Shown one piece after another: positions 1 to 5,781 of a DNA stretch of 5,781 nucleotides. The translations under genes and the position numbers were made by a program. The stretch is from an uncultured Bacilli bacterium. GTDB lineage: Bacteria > Bacillota_I > Bacilli_A > RF39 > UBA660. The stretch is taken from positions 1 to 5,781 of the forward strand of contig CANPYU010000080.1 of NCBI GenBank assembly GCA_947588665.1. The letters run 5' to 3'. Each line of letters starts with the position of its first letter. Position 1 is the stretch's first letter. The notes beneath the pieces were generated by a model that saw nothing but the letters and a program-made list of their open reading frames with translations, ran no database searches and had not been told where the DNA came from.

Positions 1-11
1 AAATAAGCTTC

Positions 12-42
12 AAAAAAACAACGAATAAATTCGTTGCTTTTT
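12..42. terminator. Bidirectional intrinsic terminator at left edge
   Basis: A perfect 7-bp stem CAACGAA/TTCGTTG (19-25 and 30-36) encloses the loop TAAA. On the + strand it is followed by C and five T; on the - strand by seven T (the A run at 12-18), so it can work both ways. No - strand gene runs into it within the window. It most likely ends a + strand gene whose last codons may be AAA TAA at 1-6, but that gene cannot be identified. The palindrome GGCATGCC (43-50) follows directly. Confidence 0.75.
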
Positions 43-153
43 GGCATGCCTTAACATTTAGCTGTGAATTGTAACAAAAAGTTAACTATTCATATAAAAC
101 ATATAAAATATATAAAAAAATAAAAAATAAAAAGTAATATATTTAAATTTTTA

Positions 154-162
154 TGATACAAT
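154..162 (+). promoter_or_regulatory. Extended -10 promoter of the DUF192 gene
   Basis: TGATACAAT matches the extended -10 pattern TGnTATAAT with one mismatch. No good -35 hexamer is found 16-18 nt upstream. Transcription starting about 7 nt downstream (near A169) would make an mRNA beginning close to AGGTGATAAT-ATG, with the Shine-Dalgarno sequence at the 5' end. A similar layout is seen before obg and before the 251-residue protein gene. Confidence 0.5.
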
Positions 163-178
163 TATTATAGGTGATAAT

Positions 179-508
179 ATGTATCTTAAAACAAACAAAC
201 AGAAATACCCCATAATTATTGCAAATTCATTTTCTAAAAGATTGAAAGGTCTAATGGGAGAAAAAAATATAAATTATGGTATGCTTTTTCCTAAATGTAA
301 TTCCATCCATACTTACTTTATGAAAGAAAATATTGATATAGTTGGCTTAGATGAAAACAATGAAGTAATATATAAATACGAAAACCTAGATAAAAATCGA
401 ATAATTAAAATAAAATATAACGCCAAAAAAACAAGCATTTTAGAAATGCCTGCTAATAGTACTAAAAAAATAAAGATAGGTACAATTCTTCTCTTTACAG
501 AAGACTAA
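179..508 (+). CDS. DUF192 (UPF0127) family protein
   Basis: A 109-residue protein that I assign to DUF192 from its motif order: a basic GLMG segment (SKRLKGLMG, residues 19-27), GMLFP (34-38), a central stretch with HTYFMKENIDIVGLD where the family usually has FWMKNT and LD (44-58), and the closing LEMPA...KIKIG (88-101). Its length is normal for a single-domain, cytoplasmic member; no signal peptide is seen. The family's biochemical function is not established. The start is set by AGGTG at 169-173, 5 nt before the ATG. The gene is monocistronic, with its own promoter just upstream and a terminator whose left arm lies inside the last coding codons. DUF192 genes may sometimes lie near Tad-type pilus loci, as here, but other genes intervene, so a link is only speculation. 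Confidence 0.85.
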   Translation: MYLKTNKQKYPIIIANSFSKRLKGLMGEKNINYGMLFPKCNSIHTYFMKENIDIVGLDENNEVIYKYENLDKNRIIKIKYNAKKTSILEMPANSTKKIKIGTILLFTED

Positions 509-520
509 CCTATCTTTTCT
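472..520 (+). terminator. Two-tier terminator overlapping the DUF192 gene end
   Basis: The outer stem is a perfect 9 bp, AAAGATAGG (472-480) with CCTATCTTT (509-517). Inside it is a second perfect 6-bp stem, TCTTCT (487-492) with AGAAGA (499-504), looped by CTTTAC. The T tract is short and broken (TTTTCTATTG). The left arm and the whole inner hairpin are coding sequence; the stop codon TAA (506-508) sits just before the outer right arm. Confidence 0.6.
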
Positions 521-688
521 ATTGTATAACATTTAGTAATTACTTAGAAAGTATTATCCAACTTAATTTTATAGATAAAGTAAATTATTCTTTTGATCCT
601 AATATAATTAGTACTTATGGCTTAGTCAATCTATCTAATATTGAAGATAAAAAATTATCTGATAAATTTATCATCAAATATTTTAGAC

Positions 689-717
689 TTGACAAAGCAA
701 GAATGCTTGATTACAAT
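689..717 (+). promoter_or_regulatory. Near-consensus promoter inside the Rpn remnant
   Basis: TTGACA (689-694, 6/6 match), a 17-nt spacer, then TACAAT (712-717, 5/6 match). It is the best sigma70/sigmaA-type match in the window and lies within the coding frame of the remnant. Transcription from about 724 would cover the C-terminal part, including AAGGAG and the in-frame ATG at 808. It could be chance in AT-rich coding DNA, but both the spacing and the -35 are unusually good. Confidence 0.45.
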
Positions 718-807
718 AAAGATGACAAAGTATTACTGTGGCTTAAATTTATTGGTGCCGAAAGTAATGAAGAACGTTCTAAAATAGCTGAAGGAGATGA
801 TGCCTTA

Positions 808-1026
808 ATGGCCTTAAATGAAGGGATAGATGAATATGTTAATGACTTACATACCCAAGAAGTATTTGGTAAATGGGCTGAAGAAATTGCCGAAGAGAAA
901 GGTGAAGAAAAGAAAGCCACAGAAATTGCTAAAAACTTCTGTAAATTAAACTATCCTTTAGAGGACATTTCAAAAGCAACCGGAATACCTTTAGAAGAGT
1001 TAAAAAAATTAGAGAGCGAACAGTAA
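808..1026 (+). CDS. Possible intragenic C-terminal Rpn small protein
   Basis: This is a 72-residue frame nested in phase inside the Rpn remnant, starting at ATG 808. AAGGAG at 791-796 lies 11 nt upstream, a little long but usable, and a near-consensus promoter lies at 689-717. The product would be an acidic helical stretch (about residues 1-35) plus the helix-turn-helix-like tail (about 38-67). In E. coli, rpn genes are known to contain an internal gene for a C-terminal small protein that blocks the full-length toxin; this frame would be the equivalent. Here the full-length gene is broken, so the small protein could be a surviving antitoxin or simply part of a dead gene. The existence of the product is inferred only. 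Confidence 0.3.
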   Translation: MALNEGIDEYVNDLHTQEVFGKWAEEIAEEKGEEKKATEIAKNFCKLNYPLEDISKATGIPLEELKKLESEQ

Positions 1027-1037
1027 ATAGCTCTCTA
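1010..1037. terminator. Bidirectional terminator between Rpn remnant and obg
   Basis: A perfect 8-bp stem, TAGAGAGC (1010-1017) with GCTCTCTA (1030-1037), has a 12-nt loop. On the + strand it is followed by TTTTATTCTTT. On the - strand it is followed by A and then a run of eight-T quality interrupted only at its edges (complement of 1002-1010), making it a strong terminator for obg. The + strand stop codon (1024-1026) lies in the loop, and the obg stop (1040-1042) is 2 nt from the stem, so the two convergent genes share one compact signal. Confidence 0.8.
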
Positions 1038-1039
1038 TT

Positions 1040-2314
1040 TTATTCTTTAAATTCAAACATATAATCACAAATTTGTACTAAATCTCCCCTTTTAGCTCCT
1101 AATTTTTCTAATTCTTCTTCAACCCCCATTCCTTTTAACTTTCTTGCAAATCTAATTACCGCCTCATCTTCATTAAATCTTGTCATTTTAAAGAGTTTTT
1201 CTAATTCTTTACCTTCTAAAACCCAAACATCCCCATCTTTAGTAATAGTAAATGGTTTTTCATTTTTAAATTTATATATAATATGACTCTCAAGTTCATC
1301 ATCTTCATATAAAGGAGTATTATTTATTTCCTCTAATATCTCAGCACAACGATTTATTAAAATTTCAAACCCTTCATTAGTAACTGAACTTACTGGAATT
1401 ATTTCTTTATCTTTAAATTTCTTTTTAAATTTTTCTAAATTTTCTAAAGCTTTAGGCAAATCCATTTTATTAGCAACAATTATCTCTTTTTTCTTTGCAA
1501 GCTTATCACTATACTCTTCTAATTCTTTTCTAATACTTAAATAATCATTAATTGGATCCCTATCTTCTTCACTGCCCATATCAATCACATGCACTAACAA
1601 TCTAGTTCTCATCGCATGCCTCAAAAACTTATGCCCAAGCCCTACTCCAGTATGAGCTCCCTCAATAAGTCCTGGTAAATCGGCCATAATAAAAGAACTA
1701 TTATCTTTTAATTTAACTACTCCCAAATTTGGTGCTAAAGTTGTAAAATGATAACTAGCAATCTTCGGTCTTGCTGCACTAATTGTTGCTAAAATAGTTG
1801 ATTTACCAACACTAGGAAAACCAATTAACCCAACATCTGCAATTACCTTTAACTCAAGCTTTAAAAATCTTTCTTCTCCTGGTTCTCCAAGTTCACTAAT
1901 TCGTGGTGCATTATCACTGTGAGTCTTAAATGCCGCATTTCCACGACCTCCTCGCCCTCCTTTTGCTACCACTACTTCAGTATTGTCGTCTACTAAATCT
2001 GCAATAATTAAATCGGTATCTTTATCTACAATAGTTGTTCCTTCTGGCACTTTAATTATAATATCATTGGCATTTGCCCCTTGTCTATTTGCTCCTTTTC
2101 CATTTTCTCCTTTCTCACCCTTTATAATTTTCATATATCTTAAATCTATTAAAGTCTTTAACCCTTTATCAACTTTAAATATAATACTTGCGCCTCGTCC
2201 TCCGTTTCCTCCGTCTGGACCCCCCATAGCAACATATTTTTCTCTTCTAAAAGAGGTACAACCATCTCCCCCTTTACCAGCAACAACTTTAATGGATATT
2301 TCATCTACAAACAT
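1040..2314 (-). CDS. obg: GTPase Obg (CgtA/ObgE)
   Basis: Essential ribosome-associated GTPase linked to 50S subunit assembly and to stress and growth control; cytoplasmic. With the start at ATG 2314 it has 424 residues, normal for the family. The glycine-rich Obg domain fills about 1-155 (GKGGDG, GGPDGGNGGRG, KGGRGGRGN). The G domain follows, with P-loop GFPSVGKST (165-173), switch I region TTLAPNLG (191-198), DLPG (212-215), NKMD (282-285) and SSV (309-311). The C-terminal OCT domain spans about 342-424, present in many Bacillota. All key residues are intact. A GTG at 2323 gives three more residues (MIA) but falls within the Shine-Dalgarno sequence, while homologues typically begin MFVD; hence ATG 2314. 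It appears to have its own promoter and ends at a strong terminator. Confidence 0.97.
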   Translation of the reverse strand: MFVDEISIKVVAGKGGDGCTSFRREKYVAMGGPDGGNGGRGASIIFKVDKGLKTLIDLRYMKIIKGEKGENGKGANRQGANANDIIIKVPEGTTIVDKDTDLIIADLVDDNTEVVVAKGGRGGRGNAAFKTHSDNAPRISELGEPGEERFLKLELKVIADVGLIGFPSVGKSTILATISAARPKIASYHFTTLAPNLGVVKLKDNSSFIMADLPGLIEGAHTGVGLGHKFLRHAMRTRLLVHVIDMGSEEDRDPINDYLSIRKELEEYSDKLAKKKEIIVANKMDLPKALENLEKFKKKFKDKEIIPVSSVTNEGFEILINRCAEILEEINNTPLYEDDELESHIIYKFKNEKPFTITKDGDVWVLEGKELEKLFKMTRFNEDEAVIRFARKLKGMGVEEELEKLGAKRGDLVQICDYMFEFKE

Positions 2315-2320
2315 TGCAAT

Positions 2321-2325
2321 CACCT
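2321..2325 (-). promoter_or_regulatory. Shine-Dalgarno that decides the obg start
   Basis: On the - strand AGGTG (2325 to 2321) is followed by ATTGCA and ATG 2314, a spacing of 6 nt. The longer alternative would begin at the GTG that forms the end of this very motif, leaving only GAGGTAG 0-2 nt upstream. The site therefore favours ATG 2314. Confidence 0.75.
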
Positions 2326-2330
2326 ACCTC

Positions 2331-2339
2331 ATTTTATCA
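2331..2339 (-). promoter_or_regulatory. Extended -10 promoter of obg
   Basis: On the - strand TGATAAAAT (2339 to 2331) matches TGnTATAAT with one mismatch. A weak TTGTTC (2360-2355) lies 18 nt upstream as a possible -35. The predicted start, about 2324, coincides with the AGGTG Shine-Dalgarno sequence, giving a leader of about 10 nt. Confidence 0.5.
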
Positions 2340-2378
2340 TAAATCGCGAAAAAAGAACAACTATTTTTCCTTCTTATC

Positions 2379-3134
2379 TTACTTAACCATAACACCTTCA
2401 TGAGTTACAATTAATTCTTTATTTAATTTTTTATTTTTAAAATAATATTTATATTCATTTAAAACCATTTTATTATCTTCATTTTCTAATTCTAATACAT
2501 AAAATATATTATTCTCTCTCTTAACTCTTACTTGCCCATTTAAAGTATCATAAAAAACATTTAACTCTGAATTATCTTCATTAATAATTATTTCATTATC
2601 ATCTCTAATGATTAATCCCTCATCTATTAAAGAATTCCCTTTATCATCAAACAAATAATACTTTTCTTTAATTTTATCTTTATCTACTGCCCCAATCTTT
2701 AACAATAAATACTCTTGCCCATTTTCTTTAATTATCTCTATATTATTCATATCAATCCTAACATAATTATCAACTAAAGAATTACCAAATACATCTTTTA
2801 TATTTTCTTGTTTAATATTATTTATAACATTTTCTAAAATTACTCTATTACCATCAATATAAACTAATAGATTACCACTAACTAAACTATTTTCTTTATT
2901 AATATTTATATTATATTCCATCTTTAATTTAAGCCTATGATCATTTAAATAAACATTATATATCTCATTTAAAGAACTATCTGTAATATTTGACGTAACA
3001 TTTTCAATTTTCCTATTAACTTTATCTACAACATTTTCTTTTACCCCTTTATTACTTAAAGTATAAACAGTTAAAAATGTAATACTTCCCAAAGCTAAAA
3101 TCAAAACTATTAAACATACAATCTTTTTCATCAT
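2379..3134 (-). CDS. Membrane-anchored protein of unknown function
   Basis: I do not recognise this 251-residue protein. Residues 3-4 are KK, followed by one strongly hydrophobic helix (about 5-27), then a hydrophilic, Asn/Lys/Glu-rich remainder (about 28-251) that looks beta-strand rich. This suggests an N-terminally anchored protein with its bulk outside the cell. The only Cys is at position 7, before the helix, so there is no lipobox and it is not a lipoprotein. No catalytic motif is visible. YYLFDDKGNSL (159-169) is the type of strand-turn-strand repeat seen in surface proteins. The start is supported by AAGGAG (3145-3140), 5 nt before the ATG; a second ATG follows directly. It lies between the pilus-like operon and obg with its own promoter, and lacks the M-K-E-A leader of the pilin-like proteins, so membership of that system is uncertain. 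Confidence 0.85.
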   Translation of the reverse strand: MMKKIVCLIVLILALGSITFLTVYTLSNKGVKENVVDKVNRKIENVTSNITDSSLNEIYNVYLNDHRLKLKMEYNININKENSLVSGNLLVYIDGNRVILENVINNIKQENIKDVFGNSLVDNYVRIDMNNIEIIKENGQEYLLLKIGAVDKDKIKEKYYLFDDKGNSLIDEGLIIRDDNEIIINEDNSELNVFYDTLNGQVRVKRENNIFYVLELENEDNKMVLNEYKYYFKNKKLNKELIVTHEGVMVK

Positions 3135-3152
3135 GCCTTCTCCTTTTTGTAT

Positions 3153-3161
3153 ATTATATCA
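3153..3161 (-). promoter_or_regulatory. Perfect extended -10 promoter of the 251-aa gene
   Basis: On the - strand TGATATAAT (3161 to 3153) is an exact TGnTATAAT. The -35 position is poor (TTTTAA, 3181-3176, 17-nt spacer) and lies next to the T tract of the preceding terminator. Transcription would start near 3146, just before AAAGGAG, giving a leader of about 12 nt. Confidence 0.65.
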
Positions 3162-3182
3162 ATTATTAATTAATTTTAAAAC

Positions 3183-3207
3183 AAAAAAACCACTCTTCCA
3201 AGCGATT
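3183..3207 (-). terminator. Terminator ending the pilus-like operon
   Basis: On the - strand an 8-bp stem with several G-U pairs (3207-3200 with 3195-3188) closes a GGAA loop, which is a GNRA tetraloop. Seven T (3189-3183) overlap its end, then G and more T. The left arm begins at the last base of the CpaE/TadZ-like stop codon. The promoter of the next gene starts within about 25 nt, so the 72-nt gap is fully used. Confidence 0.65.
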
Positions 3208-4205
3208 TATTTAAATATATTAAAAAGTTTAGTTTTATTTCCCCCACTTCCATTAAGTCTTGAAAAACCTAAAGCCACTAAAAAATCATCCAATACTTGT
3301 TCATGTTCTTTCTTATCATCAACATAAGGAATACTAAAAAACACTTTACTATTAGTTTCTTTTTCAAAATCATTTATATCTCTATCAGTTAAAATACTTT
3401 TATTTAACACAACCATCTTATCTTTTAATTTTTCAAAAGCATCTCTATCACTTCTAATTAATTTATTAAGCTTAATTAACCCAGGCTCAATTAAATATAC
3501 CACTTCATTACATAAATTCTCTTGTTTAGAATCATTTAAATCCACTAAAATTACTTCTGCAGAAGGATTATTAGCAATATTAAAAGATAAGTCTAAAGAA
3601 CTAGTAGTTTTTAAACTTTTATCATTAAAAAATTTAAAATCCTCATTATCTACTTCAATAGCAATAACATTATAAGCAACTTCTAAATGTTTTTTTAGCA
3701 TATATACTAAAGTTGTTGCTCCAGCATGAGCCGTTACATTTTTAAAACCAACAATCCTCATTCCCCCACTTCCAGAACCAGTAAAAGTGTCAAACTGAAC
3801 AGGATTATTTGCCTCATTATCACCATTTAAATTATGATATTGAGCCACATCTTTATATGAATTAGGATTATCTATTAAAAATTTAACTGCGTTAATATTT
3901 CTTGTAAAATTGTATATTCCCATTGAAACTAACTGTGATAAATAAGCCCCACTATTAACCATGGCAGAATCATCTAATAATAAAATTATTTTACTCATAT
4001 CAAAATTAACAGACAATTTTTGAATATTTTTTATATTTTGATACCCTTTTATGGCAGTAATATCAATAATCATTTTATTAAAATAAAAATTAGTAAATTG
4101 ACTAACAAGTTCTTCTACTTCAAACTCCCCATTAATACTTTTAATCACATCTATATCTAAAGTTGCTAACATATTTTGATATTTATTTGATACTATAACA
4201 TTCAT
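3207..4205 (-). CDS. CpaE/TadZ-like protein of a pilus operon
   Basis: A 332-residue cytoplasmic protein with two parts. About 1-115 looks like the receiver-like N-terminal domain of CpaE/TadZ (IIDIT, IILLLDDS, SMGIYNF). A Gly/Ser linker (142-148) leads to a MinD-type P-loop domain, about 149-317. In place of the usual KGGVGKTT stands TAHAGATT (158-165): the catalytic lysine is Ala163 and the signature lysine is Thr158. Loss of the Walker lysine is known for CpaE/TadZ proteins, which place Tad pilus machinery in the cell instead of acting as ordinary ATPases. Other MinD-like elements include VILVDLND (218-225) and MVVLNK (264-269). GGAGG ends 5 nt before the ATG, and the gap to the preceding gene is 12 nt. 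The operon partners support a pilus role. The family match is by pattern only. Confidence 0.7.
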   Translation of the reverse strand: MNVIVSNKYQNMLATLDIDVIKSINGEFEVEELVSQFTNFYFNKMIIDITAIKGYQNIKNIQKLSVNFDMSKIILLLDDSAMVNSGAYLSQLVSMGIYNFTRNINAVKFLIDNPNSYKDVAQYHNLNGDNEANNPVQFDTFTGSGSGGMRIVGFKNVTAHAGATTLVYMLKKHLEVAYNVIAIEVDNEDFKFFNDKSLKTTSSLDLSFNIANNPSAEVILVDLNDSKQENLCNEVVYLIEPGLIKLNKLIRSDRDAFEKLKDKMVVLNKSILTDRDINDFEKETNSKVFFSIPYVDDKKEHEQVLDDFLVALGFSRLNGSGGNKTKLFNIFK

Positions 4206-4217
4206 TTAAACCCTCCA

Positions 4218-4700
4218 TTAATTAGAAAATAAATTTTCATACTCATTATTATCATAAGATTTAAAACTATTAGTTGTTCCCTTAATTGTAAATCCTGACA
4301 AATTTCCTATAACAGGCAAATTAAACTTATAAAAAATTGTAATTTGATAATAATTAGTTATTCCTAACCCCTGATATTTTTTAATACAATAATTATATTT
4401 TTCTCCAGCCTGAGCTTCTTCTAAAATATTTCTTTTTATATCTCCCCCATAAACACCCTGCTGCCCAGCTTTAGAAACACATGATCCTCTACCATCATAA
4501 AGATTTGAAGATAAATAATTATTAACTAAATCAATTGAATAATCATTTAATCCTTCATACTTTTCAATCATTGTTACTATTTCATTCTTAAGCCTAATTG
4601 TTCTATTATAATTTAAAGTTAAAGTAATGTATCCTACAAACAAAAGAATAAAAAGTATTACCAACTGTAAAATCCAAGTTTGACCTATCGCTTGTCTCAT
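4218..4700 (-). CDS. TadE-like pseudopilin, paralogue A (160 aa)
   Basis: A short leader MRQAIG is followed by one hydrophobic helix (about 8-28) and then LNYNRTIRLKNEIVTMIE (29-46), the amphipathic continuation typical of pilin-like proteins. The rest should be outside the membrane. Cys74 and Cys105 are placed to form a disulfide. The segment YYQITIFYKFNLPVIGN (117-133) and FTIKGTT (137-143) match the next upstream protein closely, so the two are paralogues. The overall design resembles TadE/TadF minor pseudopilins, but no classical prepilin site with Glu at +5 is present. It starts 6 nt after the preceding stop. The likely Shine-Dalgarno sequence, GGTGGTG (4717-4711), lies within the last codons of that gene, 10 nt upstream, implying translational coupling. 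Confidence 0.75.
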   Translation of the reverse strand: MRQAIGQTWILQLVILFILLFVGYITLTLNYNRTIRLKNEIVTMIEKYEGLNDYSIDLVNNYLSSNLYDGRGSCVSKAGQQGVYGGDIKRNILEEAQAGEKYNYCIKKYQGLGITNYYQITIFYKFNLPVIGNLSGFTIKGTTNSFKSYDNNEYENLFSN

Positions 4701-4706
4701 TATTTT

Positions 4707-5201
4707 CTAACACCACCCATATCTACCAGAGTCTATATCACATTCATTAGGCCTATATATTCTTGTTGTTTCTCCTTTAACTGAGAACCTAAATATATTA
4801 TTAATTATCGGTAAATCTAATTGATAAAATACTTCAATTTGATAGTAAAGTGCATTAGGTAACTCAGAATTTGAATTAACTTTAATTCCTTTTACACAAA
4901 AAGCCGCATCATTATTCGTTACTTCACCTGTTCTAGAATAACCAACCCAATCACTTTTGCATCTTCCAGTAGAACGATAAGAACCCTCTTGAAAATAATC
5001 CGTAATTTGGGATTTAAAATTTACACATTTAGCATCGTTTGTTGCACAAACTCCTCCCTGATTACGGATCACATTTAATATTTCATTTTTTACATTATAT
5101 GCCCTAGAATAATTAATTGATAAACAAATGTAACCTGTAAAAAGCATAATCAAAAATATAACAATATTAAATAATGATATACCACTTATAGCTTCTTTCA
5201 T
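4707..5201 (-). CDS. TadE-like pseudopilin, paralogue B (164 aa)
   Basis: Leader MKEAISG, hydrophobic helix about 8-28, then INYSRAYNVKNEILNVIR (29-46), aligning without gaps to the same stretch of the 160-aa paralogue (NY-R...VKNEI). Conserved with it are the GRC (79-81) and FCVKG (101-105) cysteines and the C-terminal YYQIEVFYQLDLPIINN (119-135) with FSVKGET (139-145). It has two further cysteine pairs, C52/C59 and C154/C164, the last Cys being the final residue. These suggest extra disulfides in the exported domain and a different place or partner in the fibre. GGTGG (5210-5206) lies 4 nt before the ATG. The gene follows the 85-aa pilin gene by 14 nt in the same operon. It probably acts as a minor pilin or pseudopilin; function is inferred from layout only. 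Confidence 0.75.
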   Translation of the reverse strand: MKEAISGISLFNIVIFLIMLFTGYICLSINYSRAYNVKNEILNVIRNQGGVCATNDAKCVNFKSQITDYFQEGSYRSTGRCKSDWVGYSRTGEVTNNDAAFCVKGIKVNSNSELPNALYYQIEVFYQLDLPIINNIFRFSVKGETTRIYRPNECDIDSGRYGWC

Positions 5202-5215
5202 CTAACCACCATCAA

Positions 5216-5473
5216 TTAACCTTTCCAAGGACATGTAATTTTTTCATTTTCATTTCCTTTAACATGACACTCAATTGCCGAACCAGCCTTAAGTAAACAC
5301 TTCCCATTCTCGCCTCTATCATCACAAACACATATAGCATCATCACAATTAGTATTATGTTTGAAATTACTATTTATAGAAGGCCAAAGTACAGAAAAGA
5401 AAAAAAAGGCCAAAAGTGCCACACTAACTACTACAATAACAGTTATATTAAGTTCACCTACAGCCTCTTTCAT
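5216..5473 (-). CDS. Small Cys-rich pilin-like protein (85 aa)
   Basis: Leader MKEAVGELN, then a hydrophobic helix (about 10-30) ending in WPSI, then a short outer domain with six cysteines (43, 48, 50, 59, 69, 81), enough for three disulfides. The size and one-helix design fit a major pilin of the Flp/Tad type, although the hallmark Glu-Tyr after the cleavage site is missing. The nearest candidate cut is after Gly6, leaving Glu at +1. It shares GELN-TVI-VV...FF...WP-I-N with the gene upstream, so they are tandem paralogues. AGGAGG ends 9 nt before the ATG and is the strongest ribosome binding site in the operon, consistent with high expression. The 52-nt gap upstream is the longest in the operon; I see no promoter or terminator in it. 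Confidence 0.75.
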   Translation of the reverse strand: MKEAVGELNITVIVVVSVALLAFFFFSVLWPSINSNFKHNTNCDDAICVCDDRGENGKCLLKAGSAIECHVKGNENEKITCPWKG

Positions 5474-5525
5474 AGCTTCTTACCTCCTAAAAATCACTAA
5501 AATTTAAATCAAAAACTAAATAGGT

Positions 5526-5781
5526 TTAAGTTTTAGTAGTACATGTAACTTTCTTACTACCACTTTTTCCATAACTACAAGTATAAGAGCCATCATTATC
5601 ATCATCTGCGTCACACTTAACATAATCATCTTCCGTCGACGATCCGACCTCTGTTCCAGGGCCATTACTACATGCTTGAGTAGACAGAATAGAATTTCTA
5701 ATTGCAGGCCATACAAATGCATAGAAGAATGCTCCTACTGCAGCTATAGCAACAACAGTAATAACTGTCATATTTAATTCA
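5526..5781 (-). CDS. Small pilin-like protein, partial at window edge
   Basis: The frame runs off the right edge. The ATG at 5771 is internal: the codons before it are GAA TTA AAT, reading ELN, and the edge base T would be the last base of a Gly codon, exactly reproducing the GELN-TVI of the 85-aa neighbour. The true start therefore lies about 17 nt beyond the window, giving some 90 residues. A hydrophobic helix ends in VWPAI. The outer domain has four cysteines (counted from the internal Met: 34, 53, 65, 77). A DDDNDG stretch (56-61) between the second and third Cys fits the DxDxDG spacing of calcium-binding loops. It is probably a major or minor pilin subunit, co-transcribed with the genes downstream. 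Confidence 0.75.
   Translation of the reverse strand, partial: ELNMTVITVVAIAAVGAFFYAFVWPAIRNSILSTQACSNGPGTEVGSSTEDDYVKCDADDDNDGSYTCSYGKSGSKKVTCTTKT

Follow-up and report, generated by a model that had tools for sequence, protein, structure and literature searches.

What machine is built from five closely spaced genes at the edge of a sequenced fragment, and where are its remaining parts? The question is raised by a 5,781-nt stretch of DNA from an uncultured Bacilli bacterium (RF39; UBA660), assembly GCA_947588665.1, contig CANPYU010000080.1, positions 1 to 5,781, referred to here as the window. Its minus strand carries two short pilin-like genes, two TadE-like genes and one CpaE/TadZ-like gene in succession, with spacings of 6-52 nt, and this arrangement, described in an initial annotation made from the sequence alone, was found to be conserved in relatives. 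The initial annotation read the genes as the distal part of a divergent Tad/type IV-pilus-like operon. The genes likely encode the fibre components of a Tad-like type IV filament machine, one that belongs to an order of uncultured gut Bacilli with small genomes. The core of the original reading is supported by the motor genes found upstream of the same five genes in relatives and by the structural model of one of the subunits.

The first gene, pil1 (5526..5781), is predicted to encode a major-pilin-like subunit with a variable, cysteine-bearing tail; its 5' end is lost at the window edge, and in relatives the protein starts with MKEATG. Its paralogue pil2 (5216..5473), which is preceded by the ribosome site AGGAGGT, encodes a second pilin-like subunit with a conserved C-terminal C-x-[WYF]-[KE]-G. 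These are followed by two TadE-like, minor-pilin-like proteins, E1 (4707..5201) and E2 (4218..4700), and by the CpaE/TadZ-like gene (3207..4205).

Analysis of the relatives, for which 80 of 120 were kept in the locus list, showed what had been attached to these genes. Upstream counts cover only those loci in which about 900 bases of sequence were available (testable loci). Among the testable loci of a more distant group, 36 of 42 encode a membrane protein of TadC shape (TadC2) immediately before the five genes. Of all 48 loci in this group, a VirB11/CpaF-family ATPase was present at 36 and a CpaB-like protein at 34. The operon upstream of the five genes in relatives contains an ATPase, a CpaB-like protein and two membrane proteins shaped like TadB and TadC (TadB2 and TadC2), in line with the motor ATPase and platform proteins that the initial annotation had expected of such a system. 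The motor operon begins with genes for a large secreted protein (BIG) and its anchored partner (SP243). In one genome, G003, part of the motor half occurs again as a divergent second copy, with a TadC2 51% identical (C18:2852-3631) and an ATPase match (C18:4847-5371).

The motor ATPase shows 77-85% identity in a 19-sequence alignment. Its profile matched VirB11 (E 3e-19), CpaF (3.7e-19), the type II-like ATPase 2oap (9e-18) and FlaI (3.6e-17) in the PDB, while the NCBIfam scores were 5.8e-31 for VirB11 and 5.3e-29 for TadA, both under cut-off, and 3.3e-21 for ComGA. Compared by hhalign with the canonical TadA of the same genomes, it scored 99.5% over 333-345 columns (reversed control 0.07%). 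A TadA/CpaF-family ATPase, as expected of a Tad pilus, is present both in the operons of relatives and in genomes of the window's group; VirB11 scores equally well. The matches of the CpaB-like protein to TIGR03177 (6e-7) and PF16976 (1e-5) did not reach the curated cut-offs. TadB2 and TadC2 resemble TadB and TadC in size, position and helix layout, but T2SSF (PF00482) was found in none of 18 members of each, while the canonical TadB and TadC of locus L001 matched it at 1.2e-10 and 6.9e-17. Their identity as platform proteins is therefore a prediction from position and shape, and homology to platform proteins was not shown by sequence. A prepilin peptidase, also proposed there, was absent from the ten L090 operon proteins scanned, but PF01478 was found in 7/7 genomes scanned and in 182/193 genomes of the order.

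The subunits were compared using profiles from which duplicates and proteins outside 0.7-1.4x the median length had been excluded, with E2 trimmed to 175 residues; the alignments used throughout the analysis (A1-A8) contained 36, 40, 37, 33, 26, 19, 18 and 18 chosen sequences. All four subunit families have an M-[KR]-x-x-x-G box ahead of the helix, with Gly6 present in 78/82, 72/77, 67/79 and 76/79 proteins. The motif of Flp major pilins is G-x4-E-[YF]. As originally claimed, this signature was missing: G-x4-E did not occur in the first 25 residues in any of the four families (pil1 0/83, pil2 0/77), and Glu5 was also absent. Class III signals are described in the consulted part of PMC10191384 as short hydrophilic leaders ending in Gly or Ala and followed by a hydrophobic helix, with Glu5 frequent but not universal. 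As a pattern, Gly6 and the residues before it agree with a class III leader whose last residue is Gly, and cleavage may occur there.

In pil1 the mean frequency of the major residue was 0.94 in the first 32 aligned columns and 0.42 in the rest (78 sequences). Cysteine counts were even in 82/83 pil1, 77/77 pil2 and 72/79 E2 proteins, but in only 28/79 E1 proteins. Profile comparison joined pil1 to pil2 (probability 99.9) and E1 to E2 (probability 100). The commonest weak Pfam match of pil1 was to the archaeal Pilin_N (PF07790; 17/26 in alignment A5, best E 0.018). The AlphaFold2 model of E2 (pLDDT 88) has helices at 2-47 and 53-65 followed by a strand-rich C-terminal part of five short-to-long strands, the long ones at 104-110, 116-128 and 132-142. 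This is a pilin-like plan, and no significant fold match to the model was found in the PDB. PF13400 (TadE) matched E2 weakly in 3/40 sequences, and four TadE/TadF profile pairs were all insignificant, the reversed control scoring higher in one. The long helix and sheet of the E2 model are consistent with the pilin-like fold that the initial annotation expected; homology to TadE and Flp was not shown by sequence. The TadZ-like protein has a receiver-like and a ParA-like domain, as in TadZ/CpaE, and its ParA/MinD-fold domain is without the P-loop lysine.

The position of the five genes relative to their motor is different in the window's own group. There, the arrangement with TadC2 upstream was found in 0/26 testable loci, the motor half was elsewhere in the genome in 30/32 genomes, and a VirB2-like gene, instead of pil1, followed TadC2 in 27/30. 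Given the split operon of the closest relatives, the five window genes probably do not form the physical end of a motor operon, contrary to the original wording. The window ends inside pil1, and the split of its own genome is inferred from these relatives. Extension of the contig to the right, as had been suggested, would probably have failed to reveal motor genes, and with the motor half elsewhere the system is hidden from ordinary annotation. At five loci of the distant group (L047, L062, L074, L075 and L077) the sequence preceding pil1 lacked TadC2, possibly representing further independent separations.

DUF5411, used as a marker of the motor half, was found in 156/193 genomes of the order. 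Across the phylum it was over the cut-off in 20/392 genomes, 19 of which were already in the order sample; the twentieth, G559, is probably outside the order and has a compact version (DUF5411-CpaB-ATPase-TadB2-TadC2-E-like-large protein). The sole match for DUF5411 in a full-text literature search was Miller et al. 2022 (PMC9523054), where the passages concerned predict an operon comprising CpaF, PilC/GspF, DUF5411 and an InlB-like protein and label it 'secretion-related'. The branch is thus not wholly undescribed, but the pilins, the TadE-like proteins, the TadZ-like partner and the split are not named in those passages. The genera given there are Roseburia, Ruminococcus and Eubacterium, whereas the 156 genomes counted above belong to one Bacilli order. 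Since locus L029 carries the name Ruminococcus sp., some of these names may be labels of metagenome-assembled genomes of this order.

The system resembles the Tad/type IVc (Flp) systems in its ATPase, CpaB-like protein, two platform-shaped proteins, small pilins, two TadE-like proteins and two-domain TadZ-like protein, and in being a single operon in many relatives. It differs in the missing Flp signature and Glu5, in the variable cysteine-bearing tails, in having no peptidase seen in the operon and in the split. Furthermore, its pilins, TadE-like, TadZ-like and platform proteins have no significant similarity to the canonical Tad proteins of the same genomes. The Tad operon of Bulleidia extructa, as presented in the portion of PMC12786226 used here, likewise has two major pilins and TadE/TadF in a compact genome, but it includes tadV, and the functions of eleven products were predictable by hidden Markov model or structural model. 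The conjugation apparatus of Mycoplasma integrative and conjugative elements (NF045975, NF045848) is not part of the window, and scores were under the curated cut-offs.

A somewhat unlikely alternative is pseudopilus-type secretion, in which the subunits would form a short piston exporting a large secreted protein and its partner, with no long surface fibre. BIG and SP243 at the operon head would suit this, as would the secretion-related label given to the motor operon in the 2022 passages. However, the variable tail on a near-invariant pil1 helix suggests exposure outside the cell. So do surface repeats: a long C-terminal extension was found in 5/79 E2 proteins, 4 of them (L001, L010, L019 and L024) with a Listeria-Bacteroides repeat (Flg_new), and among the matches listed DUF5411 had the same C-terminal repeat in 4 of 120 relatives (P0267, P0277, P0279 and P0282), which suggests that these ends are extracellular.

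A hybrid machine that unites the Tad-like module with the neighbouring VirB2/VirB6/PrgI/VirB4 set is unlikely. Some genomes that lack DUF5411, among them G030, G034 and G061, also have VirB4, G118 has VirB4 and DUF5411 more than 600 kb apart on a single contig, the VirB2-like Pfam match is under its cut-off, and gene adjacency is not physical interaction. Its fullest form is doubtful: an order-wide hybrid of a Tad-like filament, Glu5-less pilins with disulphide-bonded variable heads, a VirB11/CpaF motor, a lysine-less TadZ, a genetically and perhaps physically coupled chromosomal VirB2/VirB6/PrgI/VirB4 core, and interchangeable InlB-type repeats on minor subunits.

That the split-off block is a relic, or was recruited to another motor, is improbable. 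A candidate motor is at hand in the canonical Tad operon found downstream of obg at L001 and at further loci of the window's group, but that operon encodes a pilin, a TadE and a ParA-type TadZ of its own, the block is under purifying selection, and the motor half is retained in the 30 genomes noted above. A ComG competence-type DNA-uptake pilus, which a small genome with pilin-like genes set apart might suggest, is highly improbable given the VirB11/CpaF-like ATPase, the CpaB-like and TadZ-like partners and a separate full-length T2SSE ATPase; a ComGA/PilB-type ATPase was considered for the operon and rejected, as the VirB11 and TadA models outscore ComGA.

The rest of the window contains a minus-strand feature at 2379..3134, the obg GTPase gene (1040..2323, minus strand), which is the housekeeping neighbour of the apparent new site of the block, and a DUF192 protein (179-508). 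Between obg and DUF192 is a fragment (703-1026) with similarity to the C-terminal end of Rpn family nucleases/transposases (TIGR01784, E 1.3e-5, under cut-off). In L001, DUF192 directly adjoins obg, with no such fragment between. Just past obg and DUF192 in window-group loci is the canonical Tad operon (L001:13671-18539), with Flp (1.4e-5, under cut-off), TadE (2e-12), TadF-like, ParA-type TadZ, TadA, TadB and TadC, so that two Tad-type loci flank obg; the canonical Flp-to-TadZ genes were also found in L003, L015, L019, L024-L027 and L032. DUF192 may belong to this neighbourhood, because it is reported near the end of the Bulleidia Tad operon and beside Tad genes in Helcococcus (PMC12786226, same portion). 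A collagen-like (GPTGPTGPT) protein was encoded at L092:1799-3199, near VirB4/PrgI and full-length T2SSE ATPase genes.

As a Tad-like filament machine, the system would work as follows. Pil1, with pil2, would be inserted in the membrane with the N-terminus inside and the C-terminus outside, and the M-[KR]-E-A-T-G terminus would perhaps be trimmed after Gly6 by the A24 prepilin peptidase of the genome. The near-invariant pil1 helix would form the filament core and the variable tail, probably disulphide-bonded, would be displayed outside, with E1, E2 and probably DUF5411 as minor or tip subunits. The VirB11/CpaF-like ATPase would power the two platform proteins, the CpaB-like protein would serve as an alignment protein, and the TadZ-like protein would position the machine instead of serving as a switch driven by ATPase activity. 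BIG and its anchored partner SP243 may be adhesins or cargo, and the filament may have a role in adhesion or in the secretion of proteins. In the window's group all five genes would have moved out of the ancestral operon together, and the block now lies upstream of obg. The system is thus best placed among type IV filaments as a Tad-like member, with its fibre half in the window and, in the closest relatives, its motor half at another place in the genome: outside Tad by sequence, it probably works like a Tad system.
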